A stretch of DNA of 27,763 nt from a virus. The position numbers and the translations under genes were made by a program. Positions 2,167 to 19,517 of the stretch are shown in pieces. The notes under the pieces were generated by a model that saw nothing but the letters and a program-made list of their open reading frames with translations, had not been told where the DNA came from and did no database searches. The stretch covers positions 1-27,763 of the IMG/VR virus record IMGVR_UViG_3300047477_000200. One strand, given 5' to 3'. How positions within the stretch are numbered: position 1 is the first letter of the stretch; every line of letters starts with the position of its first letter.

Positions 2167-2666
2167 TTTAAGAGACCTTTCGATGCTTTTCGTTTTTGAT
2201 AACTGACTGCTTCTCGTTTACGCCGCTGTTCTCTTGCTTCACGACTTTCGTTTTTTACCCGTTTTGAGTCGCATGCTTTGCAGATCGTGGATTTTCCGGT
2301 TGTTCGTCTGTTGTCAGAAACGAAGTCATTGAGTGTTTTTTGTTGTTTGCACACATAGCATCTACAAACCCCGTTATTGGCTAAGCGTTTGTCTTTTGCG
2401 ATGTTTTCTGTTAGAGGTATAACTTGCATATTTAAAAGATCGTAGTGGCCGTTGTTATCTATTCGATCAATAGAACATCTCTCGAAATCTCTCGCCATGA
2501 ACCATTTAACAAAATCTTCTTTTGATACCAACACTTGAACGCCTTTATAGGATGCGTTCTTCGACGTACGGGTGTTTTTCACTCGGTGGCACATCATGTA
2601 ATAACGTGCCAGCGCTCGATGTCTTCCGCCGATAATCTTGTGCCGATTGTCATTTTTGCTCGGCAT
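2163..2666 (-). CDS. HNH endonuclease with C-terminal zinc-binding module, 167 aa
   Basis: The central part reads RCSIDRIDNNGHYDLLNMQ and VIPLTENIAKDK, the usual core of HNH homing-type endonucleases, at about residues 63-95. A C-terminal module with CRCYVCKQQKTLNDF followed by STICKACDSKRVK gives two CxxC pairs that should bind zinc. The tail is rich in Lys and Arg. The gene is visibly more AT-rich than its neighbours, consistent with recent acquisition as a mobile endonuclease. It is coupled to the downstream Cas4-like gene by an ATGA overlap and follows dUTPase by 2 nt, so it sits inside the operon without breaking it. The related HNH gene at 10368 has a similar zinc module at its N-terminus. 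Confidence 0.82.
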   Translation of the reverse strand: MPSKNDNRHKIIGGRHRALARYYMMCHRVKNTRTSKNASYKGVQVLVSKEDFVKWFMARDFERCSIDRIDNNGHYDLLNMQVIPLTENIAKDKRLANNGVCRCYVCKQQKTLNDFVSDNRRTTGKSTICKACDSKRVKNESREAREQRRKREAVSYQKRKASKGLLK

Positions 2667-2668
2667 GT

Positions 2669-3109
2669 TTAACGGCCTGTATGGCCGAAGCCGCCAGCGC
2701 CACGTTCAGTTGAACTGAGTTCGTCGACTACTTCAAAGACCGCCTGTTGGATGGGCAGGATCATGGCTTGGGCGATGCGGTCGCCGTGTTTGATGTGAAG
2801 GCCGCAATCAGGTGTGTCTACTGTGAGTTTCACTTTCACTTCACCGCGGTAATCGCTGTCAATCACACCAACGCAGTTGGCCAGACGCACACCGTAGTTG
2901 AACCCGTGGCCACTGCGGCTAAAGACCAGCATGACGTGATCTTGAGGAACTTCGAACGCCAGGCCTGTGGCGATAACATCAGGCGCGTATTGACCCACAT
3001 GGTATGTTGCACTCAATGAGAGGGCATGTAGGTCAAAGCACGCTGCACCGGGTGTTGCATAGGTAGGAATGATTGCTTCGGGGTGCAGCTTCTTGATTTT
3101 GACTTGCAT
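2669..3109 (-). CDS. dut: dUTP diphosphatase (dUTPase), 146 aa
   Basis: This is a trimeric-type dUTPase, which hydrolyses dUTP to dUMP and pyrophosphate and so keeps uracil out of DNA. All five family motifs are present in order: ATPGAACFDLHA, FSRSGHGFN, GVIDSDYRGEV, GDRIAQAMILP, and the C-terminal RGAGGFGHTGR loop that closes over the active site. Length matches the family (about 140-155 residues). A GAGGA Shine-Dalgarno lies 8 nt before the ATG. Upstream is the gene-free stretch at 3110-3855; downstream the HNH gene begins after 2 nt. Confidence 0.95.
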   Translation of the reverse strand: MQVKIKKLHPEAIIPTYATPGAACFDLHALSLSATYHVGQYAPDVIATGLAFEVPQDHVMLVFSRSGHGFNYGVRLANCVGVIDSDYRGEVKVKLTVDTPDCGLHIKHGDRIAQAMILPIQQAVFEVVDELSSTERGAGGFGHTGR

Positions 3110-3240
3110 GACTTTGTCCTCGTTAAAGTTGAAGTGAGTGGGCGACTAGGAACCCCTGATCCGACACAACTGTCCTTGCTTTCATCGGCACCTTTATCCG
3201 AATGCACGGAGGTACAAGGTAAGGCGATTCAGTGTGCTTA

Positions 3241-3376
3241 ACCCACAAAGCAGCGCCCTTCTCCGGCCGGAACGGCTACCGTGCAAGTCTGTTTGGTCTC
3301 TTGCGGATTCCAAGGCCAGTATGCAACTCGCCAAAAGGGTGCTGCTTTGTAGGTGCTGGTTTCTTTCCCACCAGCA
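3241..3376 (-). ncRNA. Structured RNA unit 4 of the tandem array
   Basis: Read on the minus strand, hairpin A is TGCTGGT (3370-3376 side) with loop GGGAAAGAA and ACCAGCA (3354-3360 side). It is followed at once by ACCTACAAAGCAGC (3354-3341), which pairs with GCTGCTTTGTGGGT (3254-3241): 14 bp with one T-G wobble. About 86 nt lie between the two arms, including GCAAG/CTTGC and ACGG/CCGT stems. The same hairpin and closing-stem layout occurs at 3502-3606 and 3727-3813 with different arm sequences. Confidence 0.55.
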
Positions 3377-3447
3377 AAGTCATGTGGGTGACCTATTCAT
3401 CATCGAGGTGCTTCCTCAGATTGGCATAATTGTCGATTAGCTCAGTC

Positions 3448-3490
3448 TCGCAGGCATGCCCTGCGAAACATAGTTACAGCGTCCTGTAAC
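3448..3490. other. Two adjacent perfect hairpins between RNA units 3 and 4
   Basis: TCGCAGG-CATGC-CCTGCGA (3448-3466) and GTTACAG-CGTC-CTGTAAC (3473-3490) are 7-bp perfect stems separated by 6 nt. Neither is followed by a T-run on either strand, so they are not simple terminators. They probably belong to the same structured transcript. Confidence 0.6.
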
Positions 3491-3501
3491 GATCCTCTTT
3501 T

Positions 3502-3606
3502 ACCCACAAGTCAAGCGCACTGGTCGCTACTCCAGTTGTCGGCATTCCGACGCACGCCTGCGTCTTCTGCGCTTGCTTGTAGGTGCTGGTTTCTTTCCCA
3601 CCAGCA
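3502..3606 (-). ncRNA. Structured RNA unit 3 of the tandem array
   Basis: Hairpin A (3584-3606) is identical to that of unit 4. On the minus strand it is followed by ACCTACAAGCAAGCGCA (3584-3568), which pairs with TGCGCTTGACTTGTGGGT (3519-3502): 17 pairs with one bulged A and the same T-G wobble. The enclosed segment forms three consecutive hairpins: 3549-3564 (6 bp, tetraloop), 3539-3550 (4 bp) and 3520-3535 (4 bp). The first two share 2 nt. The result looks like a multi-branched, cloverleaf-like fold. Confidence 0.55.
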
Positions 3607-3618
3607 AAGTCACCGATT

Positions 3619-3686
3619 CATGAGACTTGCGCTTTCGGTTAGCGAGTACGCCCGCTCATGTGGGGGCAGGTTTCTTCCCAGCCTGC
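3619..3686 (-). ncRNA. Structured RNA unit 2, diverged copy
   Basis: Hairpin A here is GCAGG/CCTGC (3682-3686 with 3666-3670) around a TGGGAAGAAA-type loop. Compared with units 3 and 4, one pair is swapped on both sides (CTGG/CCAG to CAGG/CCTG), so pairing is kept. The closing stem is shorter, CATGAG/CTCATG (3660-3655 with 3624-3619), and encloses a small CGCT/AGCG hairpin. The match to the other units is weaker, so inclusion in the family is tentative. Confidence 0.4.
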
Positions 3687-3726
3687 AAAGCCATGTGGGC
3701 ACATCTAATTAGATGGATCTAGCCCT

Positions 3727-3813
3727 ACCCACAGAACTGCATCCGAATGCCGCAAGTCGACATTATTGGCACTCAGTTGCAGTTCTGTAGGTGCTGGGGA
3801 GACGGCCAGCACC
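3727..3813 (-). ncRNA. Structured RNA unit 1 of the tandem array
   Basis: On the minus strand the hairpin is GGTGCTGG, loop CCGTCTCC, CCAGCACC (3813-3790), 8 bp. It runs into ACCTACAGAACTGCA (3792-3778), which pairs with TGCAGTTCTGTGGGT (3741-3727): 15 bp with one T-G wobble in the same place as in units 3 and 4. A further 7-bp stem (GAGTGCC/GGCATTC, one wobble) fits inside. The hairpin loop differs from the other units while the stem is kept. Confidence 0.55.
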
Positions 3814-3855
3814 GTTGTTGGTATTTGATCTACATAGCTAGCCCCCTCCGTGTTG

Positions 3856-4383
3856 TTAAGTCAGAGAATCGAAAAGTTCGAAGAGGTGCAGAACCTGGTC
3901 TTTAGCATCGTCGAGCGCGTTGTGGTGTGTGCCACTCCGCGTCATCTTGATGCTTGGGTTCATGTTCTTGAGTGTGCGATAGCAGCGGTTGTTGTAGAAC
4001 ATCCACGGCTGTTCGATACCGCAATTGCGTAACGCGCTGCCCAGGATCACGTTGTCGAAGTCAGCCCCGTTACCCCATACAACCATGTCCTTCTTGACTG
4101 CGCAGCCGAGAGCGAAGTGCATGAACGCGATGAGTGCGTCCGGCATGGTCTCGCCTTTACGTTGGAACGCAGCCCGTGCCTCGTCGCTCTGCTGCATCCA
4201 CCAGAGTACCGTGCTCGGGTCCATAGCTCCGCCGTATTCAACAGCGGATGCAAGGTCGATGACTTTGTAGAACTCCTTGCCGAGTTTCATCTTGACCGGG
4301 TCGAATTCCACAGCGCCGATGGCGATGATGGCTGCATTGGGTGTGTTACCCATGGTCTCCAGGTCGATCATGAGGTTCTTCAT
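3856..4383 (-). CDS. DEDDh 3'-5' exonuclease (exonuclease VIII/Rv2179c-like), 175 aa
   Basis: The N-terminus MKNLMIDLETMGNTPNA gives the first DEDD motif (Asp7, Glu9). The middle GNGADFDNVILG supplies the next Asp, and HHNALDDAKDQ gives the His-x4-Asp of DEDDh enzymes. PSTVLWWMQQSDEAR is the helix typical of the phage exonuclease family related to Rv2179c and RecE-type exonucleases. It should degrade single-strand DNA or RNA from the 3' end with two metal ions. Its start ATG overlaps the stop of the small upstream gene (AAATGAAG), so translation is coupled. The gene-free RNA-like array follows directly. Confidence 0.86.
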   Translation of the reverse strand: MKNLMIDLETMGNTPNAAIIAIGAVEFDPVKMKLGKEFYKVIDLASAVEYGGAMDPSTVLWWMQQSDEARAAFQRKGETMPDALIAFMHFALGCAVKKDMVVWGNGADFDNVILGSALRNCGIEQPWMFYNNRCYRTLKNMNPSIKMTRSGTHHNALDDAKDQVLHLFELFDSLT

Positions 4384-4529
4384 TTCTTTTCCCTTTTAGC
4401 GAGTTTGCGCATATGCCCGTCATGACAGACGAGGTATTCCGTGTCGTCGATGATGCGGATCTTCACGATGGTCAGACCGAAGTCTGTTGCCCATTTGCGC
4501 ATGAGATGCGCCTTGAGTTTGGTCAGCAT
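4380..4529 (-). CDS. Small basic protein, 49 aa, unknown function
   Basis: Translation from ATG 4529 gives MLTKLKAHLMRKWATDFGLT, then IVKIRIIDDTEYLVCHDGHM and a basic end RKLAKREKK. The stop TGA overlaps the exonuclease ATG and the start lies 3 nt after the stop of the upstream gene, so it fills the gap with correct operon spacing. No clear Shine-Dalgarno is seen, which suggests dependence on upstream translation. The pattern (short beta-rich core with basic ends) is compatible with a small nucleic-acid-binding protein, but that is only a guess. Confidence 0.65.
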   Translation of the reverse strand: MLTKLKAHLMRKWATDFGLTIVKIRIIDDTEYLVCHDGHMRKLAKREKK

Positions 4530-8463: not shown

Positions 8464-9435
8464 CTAGCTGAGTGCAACCTCGCCAGTCTTGACGCGGATG
8501 CGCTTGGTGGGCACTTTGATTCCCAGTGACTTCGCCAAGAGCTTGTCATTGGGAGACAGCGTGTCGCCAGAGGCAATGGCTGCTTCGATACGAACGCGGT
8601 GGGCTTTCTCTTCCTGATGAAGTTTGAACTCTTCATCATTCTGCTGGTTGATCTCTTCGTCGACCTTAGCCGGCAAGCGACCTTCGGCGTTCTTCAGAGC
8701 CAGCTCGACTTCCTTCATCGCTGCGTTGATCAGCGGGATGTCGGAGAGCGAGGCACCGCGGCTGCGACGCATGACTGCGAGCAGGGCGTTGTCACGCGCC
8801 TTGTTGAGCGAGTCGCTCAGCTTGCTGACCACGCTGACCTGCGTGTCGTGCGAGAGCCGGTCGAACATGTCGGTATCCTCGTCGTAGAGGAAGCCAATGT
8901 CGCCAGGGCGAGGCAGGGACTGGATCACTTGCATGATGTCGTGACGCTTGGCAGCGAGTGCGGCGCGTTGTTGCGCTTGGTCGATGCTGTTGAGGCGAGC
9001 CAGATCCTCGGCGGTGATACCGCAGTCGAGCGCCGCGGCCAGCCCTTCGAGCATTTCCTTGGGCATGGCACGTGCCTCGCCCGAGATCATGAACTTCATG
9101 GTGTCGTTGAAGGGCAGGACTTCGTTGTCGTTGACTTCCAGCGCGAGCATCTCGCGGTAGTCGTCACGCAGTGCGCTGAGCCAGAGCAGGTCGTGCCACG
9201 TGTTGTGGCCGGTGCCCAGCTCAGCACGGAGCATGGCGTCCTCTGCGGTCTTGGCAAAGCCGTTGACCACTTCGGTGCTCACGTCGCTGTCGTTACGCTC
9301 GATAGCTTGAACGATGCGCGAGCAGGCGCCGATGATACGAGCGTTGAGGGAACCAACGATGCCATAGAGAACAGTGCGCTTGGCTTGTTCAGGCAGGTTG
9401 TTGGCAAGGTTCTTGATGTCGATATGTACAGTCAT
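8464..9435 (-). CDS. Phage protein of unknown function, 323 aa
   Basis: The protein begins MTVHIDIKNLANNLPEQAKR and ends TKRIRVKTGEVALS. It is predicted largely helical and acidic, with no membrane segment and no catalytic motif I can identify. The middle (GDIGFLYDEDTDMFDRLSHD) and the Glu/Gln-rich helix (KVDEEINQQNDEEFKLHQEE) look like a structural or binding protein. A strong AAGGAG site lies about 8 nt before the ATG and a strong terminator follows, which suggests high expression as a separate unit. It is more GC-rich than the rest of the early arm. I do not recognise the family. Confidence 0.8.
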   Translation of the reverse strand: MTVHIDIKNLANNLPEQAKRTVLYGIVGSLNARIIGACSRIVQAIERNDSDVSTEVVNGFAKTAEDAMLRAELGTGHNTWHDLLWLSALRDDYREMLALEVNDNEVLPFNDTMKFMISGEARAMPKEMLEGLAAALDCGITAEDLARLNSIDQAQQRAALAAKRHDIMQVIQSLPRPGDIGFLYDEDTDMFDRLSHDTQVSVVSKLSDSLNKARDNALLAVMRRSRGASLSDIPLINAAMKEVELALKNAEGRLPAKVDEEINQQNDEEFKLHQEEKAHRVRIEAAIASGDTLSPNDKLLAKSLGIKVPTKRIRVKTGEVALS

Positions 9436-10367: not shown

Positions 10368-10940
10368 ATGAAGAAATGCACGCGGTGCGGGGTTGAAAAG
10401 ACGAGTGATTGCTTCAGTGTGAGGCGGGCGTCAAAGGACGGGCTTAACGCCGCGTGCAAAGACTGCCGATGCGCAACGGATAAAGCTAAGTACGCTGAAG
10501 ACGTTTCATTCAGAGACAAAGCTAAGCAGCGCTCTCGGGACAGGGCAAAGACTGATGAAGGTAAAGAGTCGTCAAAAAGGTGGTACGCAACTCATTCCTC
10601 TTCGCACAAGAAGCGCGTGTATTTGGCGCAAAGAACGCGTAAAGACAATGACCCTGCATGGAGAAACGCTGACAACGTATGGCGCGCCATGCGGGCAGTG
10701 GGTCGTGTACCTGGGTGGGCAAATAAGTCCGACACAATGCCTTTCTATGATCTGGTGGCGATCTTAGGGCCGGGTTGGGTGGTTGATCACATTGTCCCCA
10801 TTAACGGTGAAACAGTTTGTGGGTTACATGTTCGTCAAAACCTGCAGGTGGTGAGCGCTCATACCAATTCCACAAAAGGGAACCGCTTCAACGGTGAGCT
10901 TGAAATCATGGGTGTTACTGAACCGAAAGTGCGTAGGTGA
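10368..10940 (+). CDS. HNH endonuclease with N-terminal zinc-binding module, 190 aa
   Basis: The first 35 residues contain KCTRCGVEKTSDCF and AACKDCRCATDKAKY, a zinc-binding module seen in phage HNH proteins. The middle is very basic. The C-terminal part, VVDHIVPINGETVCGLH and RQNLQVVSAHTNSTKGNRF, is the HNH nuclease core. The gene is more AT-rich than the late genes. Two readings fit: a mobile homing-type endonuclease, or the terminase-linked HNH protein that helps DNA packaging in some phages, since the terminase genes follow on the same strand after 216 bp. The zinc module and AT-rich composition favour the first. Confidence 0.82.
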   Translation: MKKCTRCGVEKTSDCFSVRRASKDGLNAACKDCRCATDKAKYAEDVSFRDKAKQRSRDRAKTDEGKESSKRWYATHSSSHKKRVYLAQRTRKDNDPAWRNADNVWRAMRAVGRVPGWANKSDTMPFYDLVAILGPGWVVDHIVPINGETVCGLHVRQNLQVVSAHTNSTKGNRFNGELEIMGVTEPKVRR

Positions 10941-16853: not shown

Positions 16854-17071
16854 AAACCCTCTTGATCGACGCAATCGTCGGCGTTGGCTTCCCATCAGCG
16901 CTGCTGGCTGTTGAAGCTGAGCGAGCAGGTATGGCCTCTGGCGGTGAGTGGATGCGAGAGCGGCTTATTCACTGTGAAGAACCCCAGCTTCAGGCTCTCT
17001 ATCAGGCTCTGAGAGAAGCTCGTGAAGAGGCTGCAGCCGAGCCGGAAAGTGTGATCATCCATGCCCATTGA
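16850..17071 (+). CDS. Small helical protein, 73 aa, GTG start
   Basis: From GTG 16850, which overlaps the stop of the gene before (GTGA), the product reads MKTLLIDAIVGVGFPSALLA, VEAERAGMASGGEWMRERLI and ends ESVIIHAH. It is mainly helical with a Glu/Ala-rich stretch (ALREAREEAAAE). The last 11 nt overlap the portal start, so it is coupled at both ends. No function known. Confidence 0.65.
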   Translation: MKTLLIDAIVGVGFPSALLAVEAERAGMASGGEWMRERLIHCEEPQLQALYQALREAREEAAAEPESVIIHAH

Positions 17072-19517
17072 TGCCGACAAGACGAACGAGCAGTGGGCGC
17101 GATTCCAGTTCTGCGTATCTGGAGAGGCAAAGGTGGTCACTTCCGTGGGCTACGTGGCCTTGAAGAACATAACCGCTGAGCATTTGGTATTTGACGGTGT
17201 GGAGTTTGTGGCTTGCGACGGGGTGGTGTCAAAAGGGGAGAAGCCCTGCGTTCGAATTGACGGCATAGAGATGACCCCAGACCACAAGGTGTTATCAGAG
17301 GGTGAGTGGGTGGAGGCTCAAACATTCCCGCACCTGGGCCGTGACTATGCGCTGCGCTTCAACGTGGGTTCCAGATCGGTGTTCGACATTCTGAACTGCG
17401 GCCCTCGCGCGCGTTTCGCAGTGGTTGGCGATACAGGCTTGGTGATCGCGCACAACTGTCGTGACAGAGGGCATCTGGATTTCGTCCAGAAAGCCGACAA
17501 GTGTGACAAGTACGTCATTGGCGAGCAGTGGCTCCAGACGGATCTGAACACGCTGCAGCTACAGCGCAGGCCGGCAATCACTGTGAACAAGATTTTGTCC
17601 ACGATCAGCACGATCCTGGGTGAGCAGATATACAACCGCACTGAGGTGTTGTTCCGCCCGTCCAACGGTGCGCCGGACGGTGTGGCTGAGGCGCTGAACA
17701 AGGTGTGGATGCAGATCAGCCAGGACAACCAACTGCCTTGGGTACGCTCTGACGTGTTCTGCGACGGCATCATCCGCTCACGGGGCTTCTACGATGTCCG
17801 CATGGACTTCGCTGACGATATGCAGGGTGAGGTCAGCATAGACCTGCTCAACAGCAAGAACGTCATTGTCGACCCGGATGCCGAGGAATACGACCCGGAC
17901 TATTGGAATGACGTGTTCATCACCAAGTGGCTCACTTGGCAGGATGTGGCGGTCCTCTACAACGAGGAAGACGCGGAGTACCTGCGTGACTTCGACGTGT
18001 CAGGTTACCCGTACGGCTACGACTCTATCGAGCGCGTGCGTGATCGCTTCGCCGGGGCCATACCCATGGGCGGCTACTACGGTGTCGGCGACAGGGTAGG
18101 TGAGCGCCGGAATATCCGCGTGCTGGAGCGCCAGTACCGCAAGCTCGACAAGCAGGAGCACTTTGTCGACGTGGTGACGGGTGACATGCGCCCCATCCCG
18201 CTTGACTGGGACCGCAACCGGATCGCTGCGCTGCTTGAGAAGGCAGGTGGTCAAATCTCAACGGTGAAGAAGCTCATCAAGCGCATCCGCTGGATGGTCA
18301 CTGCAGGCAACGTCGTGCTGCATGACGACTGGAGCCCGTACAAGCACTTCACCGTCGTGCCTTTCTTCCCCCACTTCCGCTACGGCCGCACGGTCGGCAT
18401 TGTCGAGAATCTGCTCGGGCCACAGGAGATACTGAACAAGGTCTCCAGCCAGGAACTGCACATCGTCAACAGCACAGCGAACGGCGGCTGGAAGATTGAG
18501 GAAAACAGCCTCGTCAACATGAGCGTTGAAGAGCTTGAAGTCTCCGGTGCCCAGACAGGGCTCGTCATTGAATACAAGAAAGGTGCTCAGCCGCCTGAGA
18601 AGATCCAGCCAAATCAGACACCGACAGGTCTTGACCGGGTGTCATACAAGGCTGAAGAGCACATCAAGACGATCAGCAACGTCAGTGACTCGATGCAGGG
18701 CTTTGACCGCGAGGACGTAGCTGCCAAGGCTATCGCGTACAAGCGCCAGCAGGGCTCGGTCAATCTGACCAAGGTCATGGACAACCTGCAGCGCACGGAC
18801 TGGATCCTGGCCAGGAACGTGCTGGATCTGGTGCAGCAGTATTACACCGAAGAGCGGGTCATCCACGTCACGCACGAGGATGTCACCCGTGAGGCTGAGC
18901 GGATCACAGTCAATCAGCCTGACCCTTCCACAGGGGCCATCCTGAACGACCTTACGCTGGGTGAGTACAACATAGTCATCACCACCACGCCGTACCGCGA
19001 CAGCCTGGAAGATAGCCAGTTCGAGCAGGCGCGAGCCCTCCGTGAAATGGGTGTGGCGATCCCTGATGACGTGCTTATCGAGAACAGTCGCTTGCAGCGC
19101 CGTCAGGAAATCATCAAGCGCATGGCCGGTGATGAGGCCGCTGCCGCACTCAAGCAGCGGGCAGACGAAGCCAACGTGGCGAACCTGGAAGCAGATGTCC
19201 AGACGAAGCAGGCCGACGTGCTGCTCAAGCAGGCCAAGGCTCAGAAGGAAGCGCAACCAGAAGGCGACCAAGACCCGCAAGCGGAGTTCGACCTCGAACG
19301 CTACAAGATTGAGCAAGACGCGGCGCTTAAGCGCGAACAGATGGATCAGGAGTTCGCTCTCAAGCGTGAGCAGATGGAGCGCGAATTCGCCCTCAAGCAA
19401 GCCCAAGCAGCCCAGGAAGCTGAGCTGCGTGCGCGCGAAAGCGCCGCACAACAGGAAGCGCAGCGGGCTGCCGCGCTTCGTCAGAGTTCTCAACCCACCC
19501 CCACAAAAGAGGAATGA
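17061..19517 (+). CDS. Portal protein precursor, 818 aa, with mini-intein
   Basis: The portal forms the dodecameric ring at the capsid vertex through which DNA enters and to which terminase docks. Apart from residues 18-132 (a mini-intein at 17112-17456) it matches the P22-like portal family: NEQWARFQF+CRDRGHLDFVQKADKCDKYV, GEQWLQTDL, QRRPAITVNKILSTISTILGEQI and VIVDPDAEEYDPDYWND. The C-terminus is a long Glu/Lys/Gln/Ala coiled coil (about 690-800) with a near-repeat, LKREQMDQEFALKREQMERE. Spliced length would be 703 aa, which fits the family. The gene starts inside the end of the previous one and its stop lies 2 nt before the scaffold start. Confidence 0.92.
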   Translation: MPIDADKTNEQWARFQFCVSGEAKVVTSVGYVALKNITAEHLVFDGVEFVACDGVVSKGEKPCVRIDGIEMTPDHKVLSEGEWVEAQTFPHLGRDYALRFNVGSRSVFDILNCGPRARFAVVGDTGLVIAHNCRDRGHLDFVQKADKCDKYVIGEQWLQTDLNTLQLQRRPAITVNKILSTISTILGEQIYNRTEVLFRPSNGAPDGVAEALNKVWMQISQDNQLPWVRSDVFCDGIIRSRGFYDVRMDFADDMQGEVSIDLLNSKNVIVDPDAEEYDPDYWNDVFITKWLTWQDVAVLYNEEDAEYLRDFDVSGYPYGYDSIERVRDRFAGAIPMGGYYGVGDRVGERRNIRVLERQYRKLDKQEHFVDVVTGDMRPIPLDWDRNRIAALLEKAGGQISTVKKLIKRIRWMVTAGNVVLHDDWSPYKHFTVVPFFPHFRYGRTVGIVENLLGPQEILNKVSSQELHIVNSTANGGWKIEENSLVNMSVEELEVSGAQTGLVIEYKKGAQPPEKIQPNQTPTGLDRVSYKAEEHIKTISNVSDSMQGFDREDVAAKAIAYKRQQGSVNLTKVMDNLQRTDWILARNVLDLVQQYYTEERVIHVTHEDVTREAERITVNQPDPSTGAILNDLTLGEYNIVITTTPYRDSLEDSQFEQARALREMGVAIPDDVLIENSRLQRRQEIIKRMAGDEAAAALKQRADEANVANLEADVQTKQADVLLKQAKAQKEAQPEGDQDPQAEFDLERYKIEQDAALKREQMDQEFALKREQMEREFALKQAQAAQEAELRARESAAQQEAQRAAALRQSSQPTPTKEE
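17112..17456 (+). other. Mini-intein, 115 aa, in the portal protein
   Basis: Begins with Cys1 (CVSGEAKVVTSVGYVALKNI, block A). Block B is IEMTPDHKVLSEGEWV with Thr55 and His58 of the TxxH motif. The end reads FDILNCGPRARFAVVGD then TGLVIAHN (blocks F and G, His114-Asn115), followed by extein Cys. Every residue needed for standard splicing is present, and there is no room for an endonuclease. Removal joins RFQF to CRDRGHLDF, restoring the portal family sequence. Composition is like the host gene. Confidence 0.9.

Follow-up and report, generated by a model that had tools for sequence, protein, structure and literature searches.

A short conserved RNA module, possibly a pseudoknot, in an untranslated phage array and in other phage RNAs

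What a virus keeps in a gap of about 750 nt between two genes of the same strand is the question raised by IMG/VR record IMGVR_UViG_3300047477_000200, a virus record of 27,763 bases that was analyzed over its whole length (the window). Judged by its genes, which include a terminase, a P22-like portal, a capsid protein, a dUTPase, nucleases and a DUF5906 protein, the source virus is a tailed phage. The gap lies on the minus strand between the gene for a protein with an Rv2179c-like 3'-5' exoribonuclease domain (3856-4383; PF16473, E 8e-55), upstream in the transcript, and the dUTPase gene (2669-3109; PF00692, E 2e-23), downstream, after which the next open reading frame (ORF) is HNH/endonuclease VII-like. 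A protein-coding reading of the gap was rejected, as no minus-strand ORF of at least 60 aa touches 3208-3855, where the longest has 46 aa, and the plus-strand ORFs (65 and 68 aa) oppose the direction of both flanking genes. In one frame the repeated hairpin would read DFAGGKETS, seen in several loci; a peptide was also rejected, because the hairpin stem covaries as base pairs and the same hairpin sits in tmRNAs.

Elsewhere in the window, the portal protein (17061-19517, plus strand) carries a Hint/mini-intein-like insert near its N-terminus (residues ~18-135), ahead of the P22-portal domain, whose first residue is 140. The first residue of the insert is Cys, its end reads VIAHN/C, and residues 37-87 give a weak PHROG endonuclease match; these sequence features suggest that the insert may be an intein.

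The gap is filled by untranslated structured RNA units on the minus strand. In order of transcription these are unit A, a linker, module B, module C with its domain, a structured linker, and module D with its domain. Unit A starts with a hairpin of its own kind (3790-3813), whose 8-bp stem carries a loop lacking the conserved core of the other copies and which was missed by our covariance model R1, even among matches at E up to 5; the closed domain behind it (3727-3792) is an inverted repeat forming a long helix that ends in UGUGGGU, with arms (3727-3751 and 3768-3792) that are 84% complementary. Module B (3663-3693), a diverged copy, scores 37.5 bits against R1, whose training set included its sequence, and is followed by a weakly structured stretch (3613-3662). 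Module C (3582-3612), which reads UGACUUU-GCUGG-UGGGAAAGAAA-CCAGC-ACC, and module D (3352-3382) both score 51.9 bits and are identical over a direct repeat of 36 nt (3347-3382 and 3577-3612, 100% identity, with a 75% copy at 3658-3693). Module C leads into closed domain C (3502-3584), where the arm behind the hairpin pairs with a stretch starting at 3502, and module D into closed domain D (3241-3354), whose arms (3241-3260 and 3335-3354) are 90% complementary; the linker between the two units (3383-3508) is itself structured (fold z -4.4, 0 of 200 shuffles) and has ends, UGUGGGU and ACCCACA, that are able to pair. The copies of the repeat lie 81 and 230 nt apart with large domains between them, and a CRISPR array was rejected on this irregular spacing and on the pairing of the stretch behind modules C and D with a downstream arm.

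Folding energies set the array apart from shuffled sequence. The region 3110-3856 has a fold z of -7.4 for the minus strand and of -5.4 for the plus strand, with 0 of 20 shuffles as good in either case, and on the minus strand unit A (3727-3813; z -6.9, 0 of 200 shuffles as good), unit C (3502-3612; z -4.5, 1 of 200) and unit D (3241-3382; z -5.2, 0 of 200) each exceed background, while the fold of unit B (3613-3693) is equalled by 51 of 200 shuffles (z -0.7). Good support exists for domains A, C and D, in the last two from their closing helices as well as from the folds of their units, and is lacking for the stretch following module B. The plus-strand values are -5.0 for A, -5.5 for C and -4.2 for D, so that C folds relatively better on the plus strand and energy alone does not orient every unit. 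Orientation is given by the closing ACCUACA/UGUGGGU stem of A, C and D, in which one position is a U-G pair when read on the minus strand and becomes a C-A mismatch when read on the plus strand, by the direction of the flanking genes, by the U-G and G-U pairs of the wider family, which fit the same sense, and by the tRNAs that ARAGORN calls in stretches around related modules, 15 of 15 of which lie on the strand of the module. For module B, a closing helix appears only at an offset of 2 nt (0 of 60 shuffles as good; 1 of 40 in a repeat test) and uses an arm also used by domain C. The ACCCACA just before module D (3383-3389) and the UGUGGGU that ends unit C (3502-3508) are complementary, as are the CCCACA just before module B (3694-3699) and UGUGGG at 3728-3733, the latter pairing being weak (z -1.1); each can form as an alternative to the closing stem of the preceding unit.

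An earlier, sequence-only reading had proposed four tandem, diverged copies of one structured RNA. The long closing helices of A, C and D bear out part of this proposal, but A lacks the conserved loop and B folds like shuffled sequence, so that one RNA conserved in four copies is not supported. The pairing of distant arms in three units was upheld by the inverted repeats of A and D and by the helix of C, although not as the exact pairing it had been taken for, since the C helix is bulged and the arms of A match incompletely. The gain in energy was seen for the whole array and for A, C and D and failed for B; the argument from the U-G pair was confirmed, as was the change on both sides of the inner hairpin in the second unit, whose stem reads GCAGG/CCTGC.

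Judging from the loci compared, the part conserved between phages is only a module of 28-31 nt, not the whole unit. A pattern derived from hairpins B, C and D retrieved 12 stretches from IMG/VR, one of them from the same virus, and further scans used looser and stem-free patterns. For the first two of the loop types named below, a module was kept if four or more of its 5 stem positions pair (45 modules) or if 3 do, both inner pairs among them, together with a UGGG loop (1). Nine stretches (L134, L136, L137, L312, L315, L323, L325, L330 and L333) were dropped as false by eye or by stem, as were most unpaired matches of the stem-free scanning and matches outside the consensus; near-duplicates were also removed (L009/L265, which are the same virus, L010, L011, L135, L151, L155, L167, L170, L309, L310, L332 and L334), and L185, with a spacer of 6 nt, was left out of the module alignment and covariation counts. 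The family comprises 56 distinct modules in 53 records, with three loop types: the UGGGAAAG and UGGGAGAG types account for 46 modules in 44 records, including 3 from the window, 6 from tmRNAs and 16 with AGAG, and the AGUUCAAAG loop for 10, one of which lies in a record already counted (L145). The consensus is UGA-CUUU-[5 nt]-UGGGAAAGAAA-[5 nt], with a stem of 5-6 bp and about 18 near-invariant positions in 28; outside the module, information content falls to about zero except for a weak ACC behind it and a weak GC before it. With two tRNA-Gln genes and the overlapping entries of the window itself set aside, comparison of the domains that follow the modules found next to no sequence in common between phages.

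Several loci carry individual features. The structured stretches behind the modules of L012 and L141 share an exact 13-mer, CGGGTCGCAACCG (E 0.015), and L141 has a second hairpin, GCCGGGAAAGACCGGC, followed by ACCATCAC...GTGATGGT. In L147, L162, L303 and L307 the second position of the stem is a U-U mismatch (GUnGG/CCnUC), and L141 has it together with one further mismatch. On the minus strand of L145, about 170 nt separate two modules that differ in loop type (3057-3089 and 2889-2919), the second directly before a tRNA-Phe.

The stem of the module covaries, as the sequence-only reading had expected of the hairpin family. Across 35 distinct modules, 47 cells are changed on both sides of the stem against 11.3 in shuffles, and the covariation score is 0.425 against 0.168 (0 of 500); nine sequences with the AGUUC loop give 13 two-sided cells against 4.3 (1 of 500) and a score of 0.444 against 0.171 (0 of 500), and sliding the stem partner by 1-3 columns removes most of the signal in both sets. 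The modules in these counts were chosen partly for stem pairing, and matches from stem-free scanning, which are unselected, provide a separate check: at least 4 of 5 stem pairs are present in 21 of 34 with an AAAG loop, in 15 of 18 with AGAG and in 10 of 13 with AGUUC (9 in one register and 1 in another), compared with 7 of 43 at other spacer lengths and 7.5% of random 5-mers. Together these results make the module family well supported.

In contrast to the free sequence of the stem, the letters of the loop are nearly fixed, and AAAG in the loop is the complement of the CUUU that precedes the stem, which would allow the module to fold as a compact H-type pseudoknot. The CUUU faces either AAAG or AGAG: when a scan left some letters of both elements free (NYYY/RRRN), CUUU was present at every one of the 25 places found, facing AAAG at 16 and, through a U-G wobble, AGAG at 9, and U-G at the third CUUU position occurs in 12 of the 35 distinct modules. 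Most scans fixed the letters of CUUU and AAAG, and two-sided change in these pairs was never seen among the modules compared; the pseudoknot therefore rests on invariance and wobble-compatible change rather than on covariation. These data suggest a small H-type pseudoknot formed by CUUU and the loop AAAG or AGAG, a layout that looks sterically plausible if the last U is counted as a one-letter loop. Part of the UGGG- and AGUUC-type loops also fits U-N-N-R-A, the T-loop signature, a resemblance that is a lead only.

The density of near-invariant positions invites comparison with small aptamers, where it is similar, and the fixed loop letters of a small riboswitch or self-cleaving ribozyme would be a ligand pocket or active site, a reading that the leader position of many members would suit. 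It is nevertheless very unlikely in our view: neither kind of element is matched among known classes, the known classes of self-cleaving ribozyme are longer than the module, and a ligand switch would be odd inside tmRNAs and before tRNAs. A gene-specific riboswitch was rejected because those downstream genes that have named matches are unrelated.

No family in Rfam accounts for the RNA of the window, which agrees with what had been supposed before any database was searched. Rfam 15 at gathering score gave no match in the window and only tRNA and tmRNA in 30 related loci that were fetched (tRNA alone in sets of 7 and 13 loci, tRNA and tmRNA in a set of 10), and permissive searches yielded weak matches far below gathering scores, or none. 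Neither ARAGORN nor Rfam found a tRNA (RF00005) in the window units or a tmRNA (RF00023) in the window, with no tmRNA match at E up to 10 in 3100-3870; the units differ from tmRNA in having neither a tRNA-like domain nor a tag reading frame. The GGA in the loop led us to consider a CsrA sponge, CsrA binding following a GGA rule, and this was rejected because one loop type lacks GGA. GOLLD, ROOL and OLE are large structured RNAs present in phages near tRNAs, and phage T4 encodes RNAs C and D, stable non-tRNA RNAs in a phage tRNA cluster to which the present units can be likened by description alone. The first three, named in PMC12286853, resemble the array as large structured non-coding RNAs, but gave no Rfam match in the window or the scanned loci.

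Two further families were compared. The antitoxin RNAs of type III toxin-antitoxin systems (ToxI and relatives) are described in PMC5086642 as tandem RNA copies with an H-type pseudoknot; the window has three modules in tandem, but with irregular spacing, added domains and a pseudoknot that is putative, and a type III antitoxin was rejected because the gene directly downstream is that for dUTPase, followed by the HNH/endonuclease VII-like ORF, rather than a toxin endoribonuclease. Theta (HDV-like) ribozymes are pseudoknotted phage RNAs adjacent to tRNAs, for which processing of the tRNA 3'-trailer is postulated (PMC10879173); the module, by contrast, lies 5' of the tRNA, measures 28-31 nt and occurs also in ORF leaders, and, as Rfam recognized no nested double pseudoknot core of this kind in the window or the related loci, a theta ribozyme was rejected as well. 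No description of the motif was found among titles and the opening portions of abstracts in the open PubMed Central literature. Within that scope, and as the window units lack the defining features of every known family considered, we rate the module family as new, while its general kind, a conserved RNA structure of phages, is already known.

The distribution of the module was traced in phages and in bacteria. Searching 23 records whole with the model gave one strong copy in 22 (E 1.7e-4 or better), matches that arise by construction since the model was trained on most of these modules, a weak copy in the record of L133 (E 0.02) and a second, weak copy in that of L145 (E 0.06). The tandem array was seen in this virus only, among the records searched; it recurs whole only in L009/L265, where identity is 100% over 15.3 kb, and, being the same virus, that copy lends no independent support. 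With unit A lacking a module, B lacking a domain and the other records searched whole holding at most one strong copy, the array is exceptional. The nearest named phages by primase are KPP25 (34.5% aa identity) and phiR18, neither of which is among the 15 named-phage BLAST records matching the hairpin, and the gene block examined in KPP25 contains no gap of the size of the array. A module is present in the named Gordonia phage PatrickStar (KU998252, 70908-70938, minus strand), which with its relatives was found by BLAST only at E 0.1 and independently by the IMG/VR pattern (L151); this type of module has 4 of 5 stem pairs and CUUU/AAAG, with a tRNA-Leu and a tmRNA downstream. In PatrickStar (L138, ~1755-1850) a tRNA-like sequence with a long variable arm, recognized by eye and carrying neither an annotation nor an ARAGORN call, lies between the module and the tRNA-Leu.

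Bacterial genomes yielded little. In the classes surrounding a Pseudomonas, a Rhizobium and a Pontibacter genome, the exact pattern occurred in 0 of 369, 1 of 385 and 1 of 395 genomes, respectively; the first of the two matches has 0 of 5 stem pairs, and the second has 4 of 5 but scores 24.0 bits, against 37.5-51.9 for the window modules, and lies antisense inside an ORF of 168 aa. Both were judged to be chance, the second less surely, and a bacterial origin of the module was rejected on these two matches in 1149 genomes. A model search of six further bacterial genomes gave at best 25.0 bits (E 0.33, among 150 candidates scored per genome), BLAST with one 35-nt module matched no E. coli genome, and plasmids gave four weak matches. 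A contig scan with too loose a pattern gave at least 118 stretches; among the 118 listed, three (L029, L091 and L106) have CTTT before the stem, without the UGA spacing. AT-rich leaders in which a Shine-Dalgarno sequence is missing suggest that some of the records come from Bacteroidota phages.

Modules occur in four contexts: in gene leaders, immediately before tRNAs, ahead of closed non-coding domains, and at the position of the fourth pseudoknot (PK4) of phage tmRNAs. In the third context, a closing helix begins 0-1 nt behind the module in window units C and D and in L001, L002, L006, L012 and L193 (0 of 60 shuffles of the downstream sequence as good in each); in 15 of the 22 members tested no significant helix lies directly behind the module, and in L157 one starts 10 nt further on (1 of 60 shuffles as good; 0 of 40 in a second test). 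Among the AAAG-type records, 9 of 22 lie within 500 nt of a same-strand tRNA, against 2.5 expected, and 3 of 22 directly upstream of one, against 0.08, expectations that are on the high side as they were computed from fetched loci, which surround modules; of the AGAG-type records, 0 of 16 lie so near. The module directly precedes an ARAGORN tRNA in L007 (Gln), L145 (Phe) and L154 (Gln) and, by eye, a tRNA-Leu-like sequence in L008. The tRNA cluster that holds the module in L006 also contains an ARAGORN tRNA with the stop anticodon TTA (10629-10701, plus strand).

Among AGAG-type loci a leader position is seen instead: in 9 of 16, the distance from the start of the module to the first ATG ORF (at least 40 codons, or running off the stretch) is 44-65 nt. 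Pfam and PHROGs were each searched with 10 downstream proteins, seven of them common to both and 13 distinct in all; the named matches are unrelated to one another (an Acb2/Tad1 hairpin domain, a DnaA C-terminal domain, a DNA-polymerase exonuclease-like protein and a weak transposase), and the others had no named match in either. The Acb2/Tad1 hairpin-domain gene (PF24729), of an anti-CBASS family, is the ORF at 8997-9236 (plus strand) of L307, which starts 55 nt after the start of an AGAG-type module at 8942. A promoter at the module itself was rejected, as no enrichment of -10 or -35/-10 elements was found upstream of 39 modules, and no promoter was found in the window between 2600 and 4500.

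Loop letters that stay fixed while the stem varies, and three copies in the window, would be expected of a binding site for a putative RNA-binding protein, acting as a cis regulator in leaders and as a sponge or decoy in the array, a reading that also explains the repetition. We consider it improbable: the downstream genes that can be named are unrelated, we know of no candidate protein, and, against a sponge, each of the other 23 records searched whole holds at most one strong copy.

The same core sits inside six distinct phage tmRNAs (L140, L175, L183, L203, L228 and L257), before the 3' tRNA-like domain and thus at the PK4 position, and these modules align with the free ones gap-free, with the same core and stem layout. 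The likeness is one of the module and does not make the window units tmRNAs; nor does the module appear to be the usual bacterial PK4, since 1149 bacterial genomes gave no convincing match to the core pattern. That the module is a stable pseudoknot that spread from phage tmRNA by recombination and has no function elsewhere would account for the shared core, but covariation and fixed loop letters persist outside tmRNA and two loop types are unseen in its tmRNA members, so that we give this origin little credence.

Placement before coding and non-coding RNA alike, with a fixed loop and a free stem, suggests recognition of shape and loop by a factor common to the hosts. We tentatively favor, at somewhat less than an even chance, the reading of the module as a portable 5' tag by which the processing or stability of phage RNAs would be set. 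Within a polycistronic transcript such a tag would decide what becomes of the RNA that follows it, most likely as a stable structure recognized by a protein or RNase that marks a site of cutting or protection. In the window, the transcript running from the exonuclease gene to the dUTPase gene might yield short stable RNAs, each headed by a pseudoknot and closed by a terminal helix of its own; in tmRNA the use of the module would be structural. Stem covariation, the putative pseudoknot, the sharp edges of the module, the proximity to tRNAs, the closing helices directly behind some modules, the placement in leaders and the unrelated downstream genes argue for a 5' tag, which explains leaders, tRNAs and array and fits the tmRNA site poorly, as the module there is near the 3' end. 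Further points against it are that promoter-like sequences show no enrichment ahead of the modules, that 15 of the 22 members tested have no helix starting right behind the module, and that unit A has no module and unit B no domain.

Leaders, tRNAs and array would be explained about as well by antitermination, in which the nascent pseudoknot would modify RNA polymerase so that transcription passes untranslated, hairpin-rich stretches, as the put RNA of phage HK022 alters RNA polymerase. The enzyme is common to all hosts, modules precede tRNAs, structured domains and ORFs on the same strand, and terminator-like hairpins exceed shuffles in 2600-4500 (7 against 1.6), though six of the seven are on the plus strand. 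The place of the module near the 3' end of tmRNAs is again a poor fit, the first unit transcribed in the window, A, has no module, and no paper on put RNA was found in the open PubMed Central literature; we regard antitermination as unlikely. A more far-reaching reading, which we think rather doubtful, is that phages at large use the UGA-CUUU pseudoknot as an RNA signal, read by a machine that diverse bacteria have in common, such as RNA polymerase, the ribosome or a core RNase. It would then be attached alike to mRNA leaders, tRNAs, tmRNA and purely structural RNAs, and would head a locus that gives several new small RNAs from one transcript.

The module is directly testable, since the motif is short, has a strict consensus and is present in a named isolate, Gordonia phage PatrickStar. 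If the finding is borne out, phages share a previously undescribed, very small pseudoknot that is reused in four kinds of RNA. This would explain non-coding gaps in a number of phage genomes and would suggest that phages have one step of RNA metabolism in common and share a target in the host.
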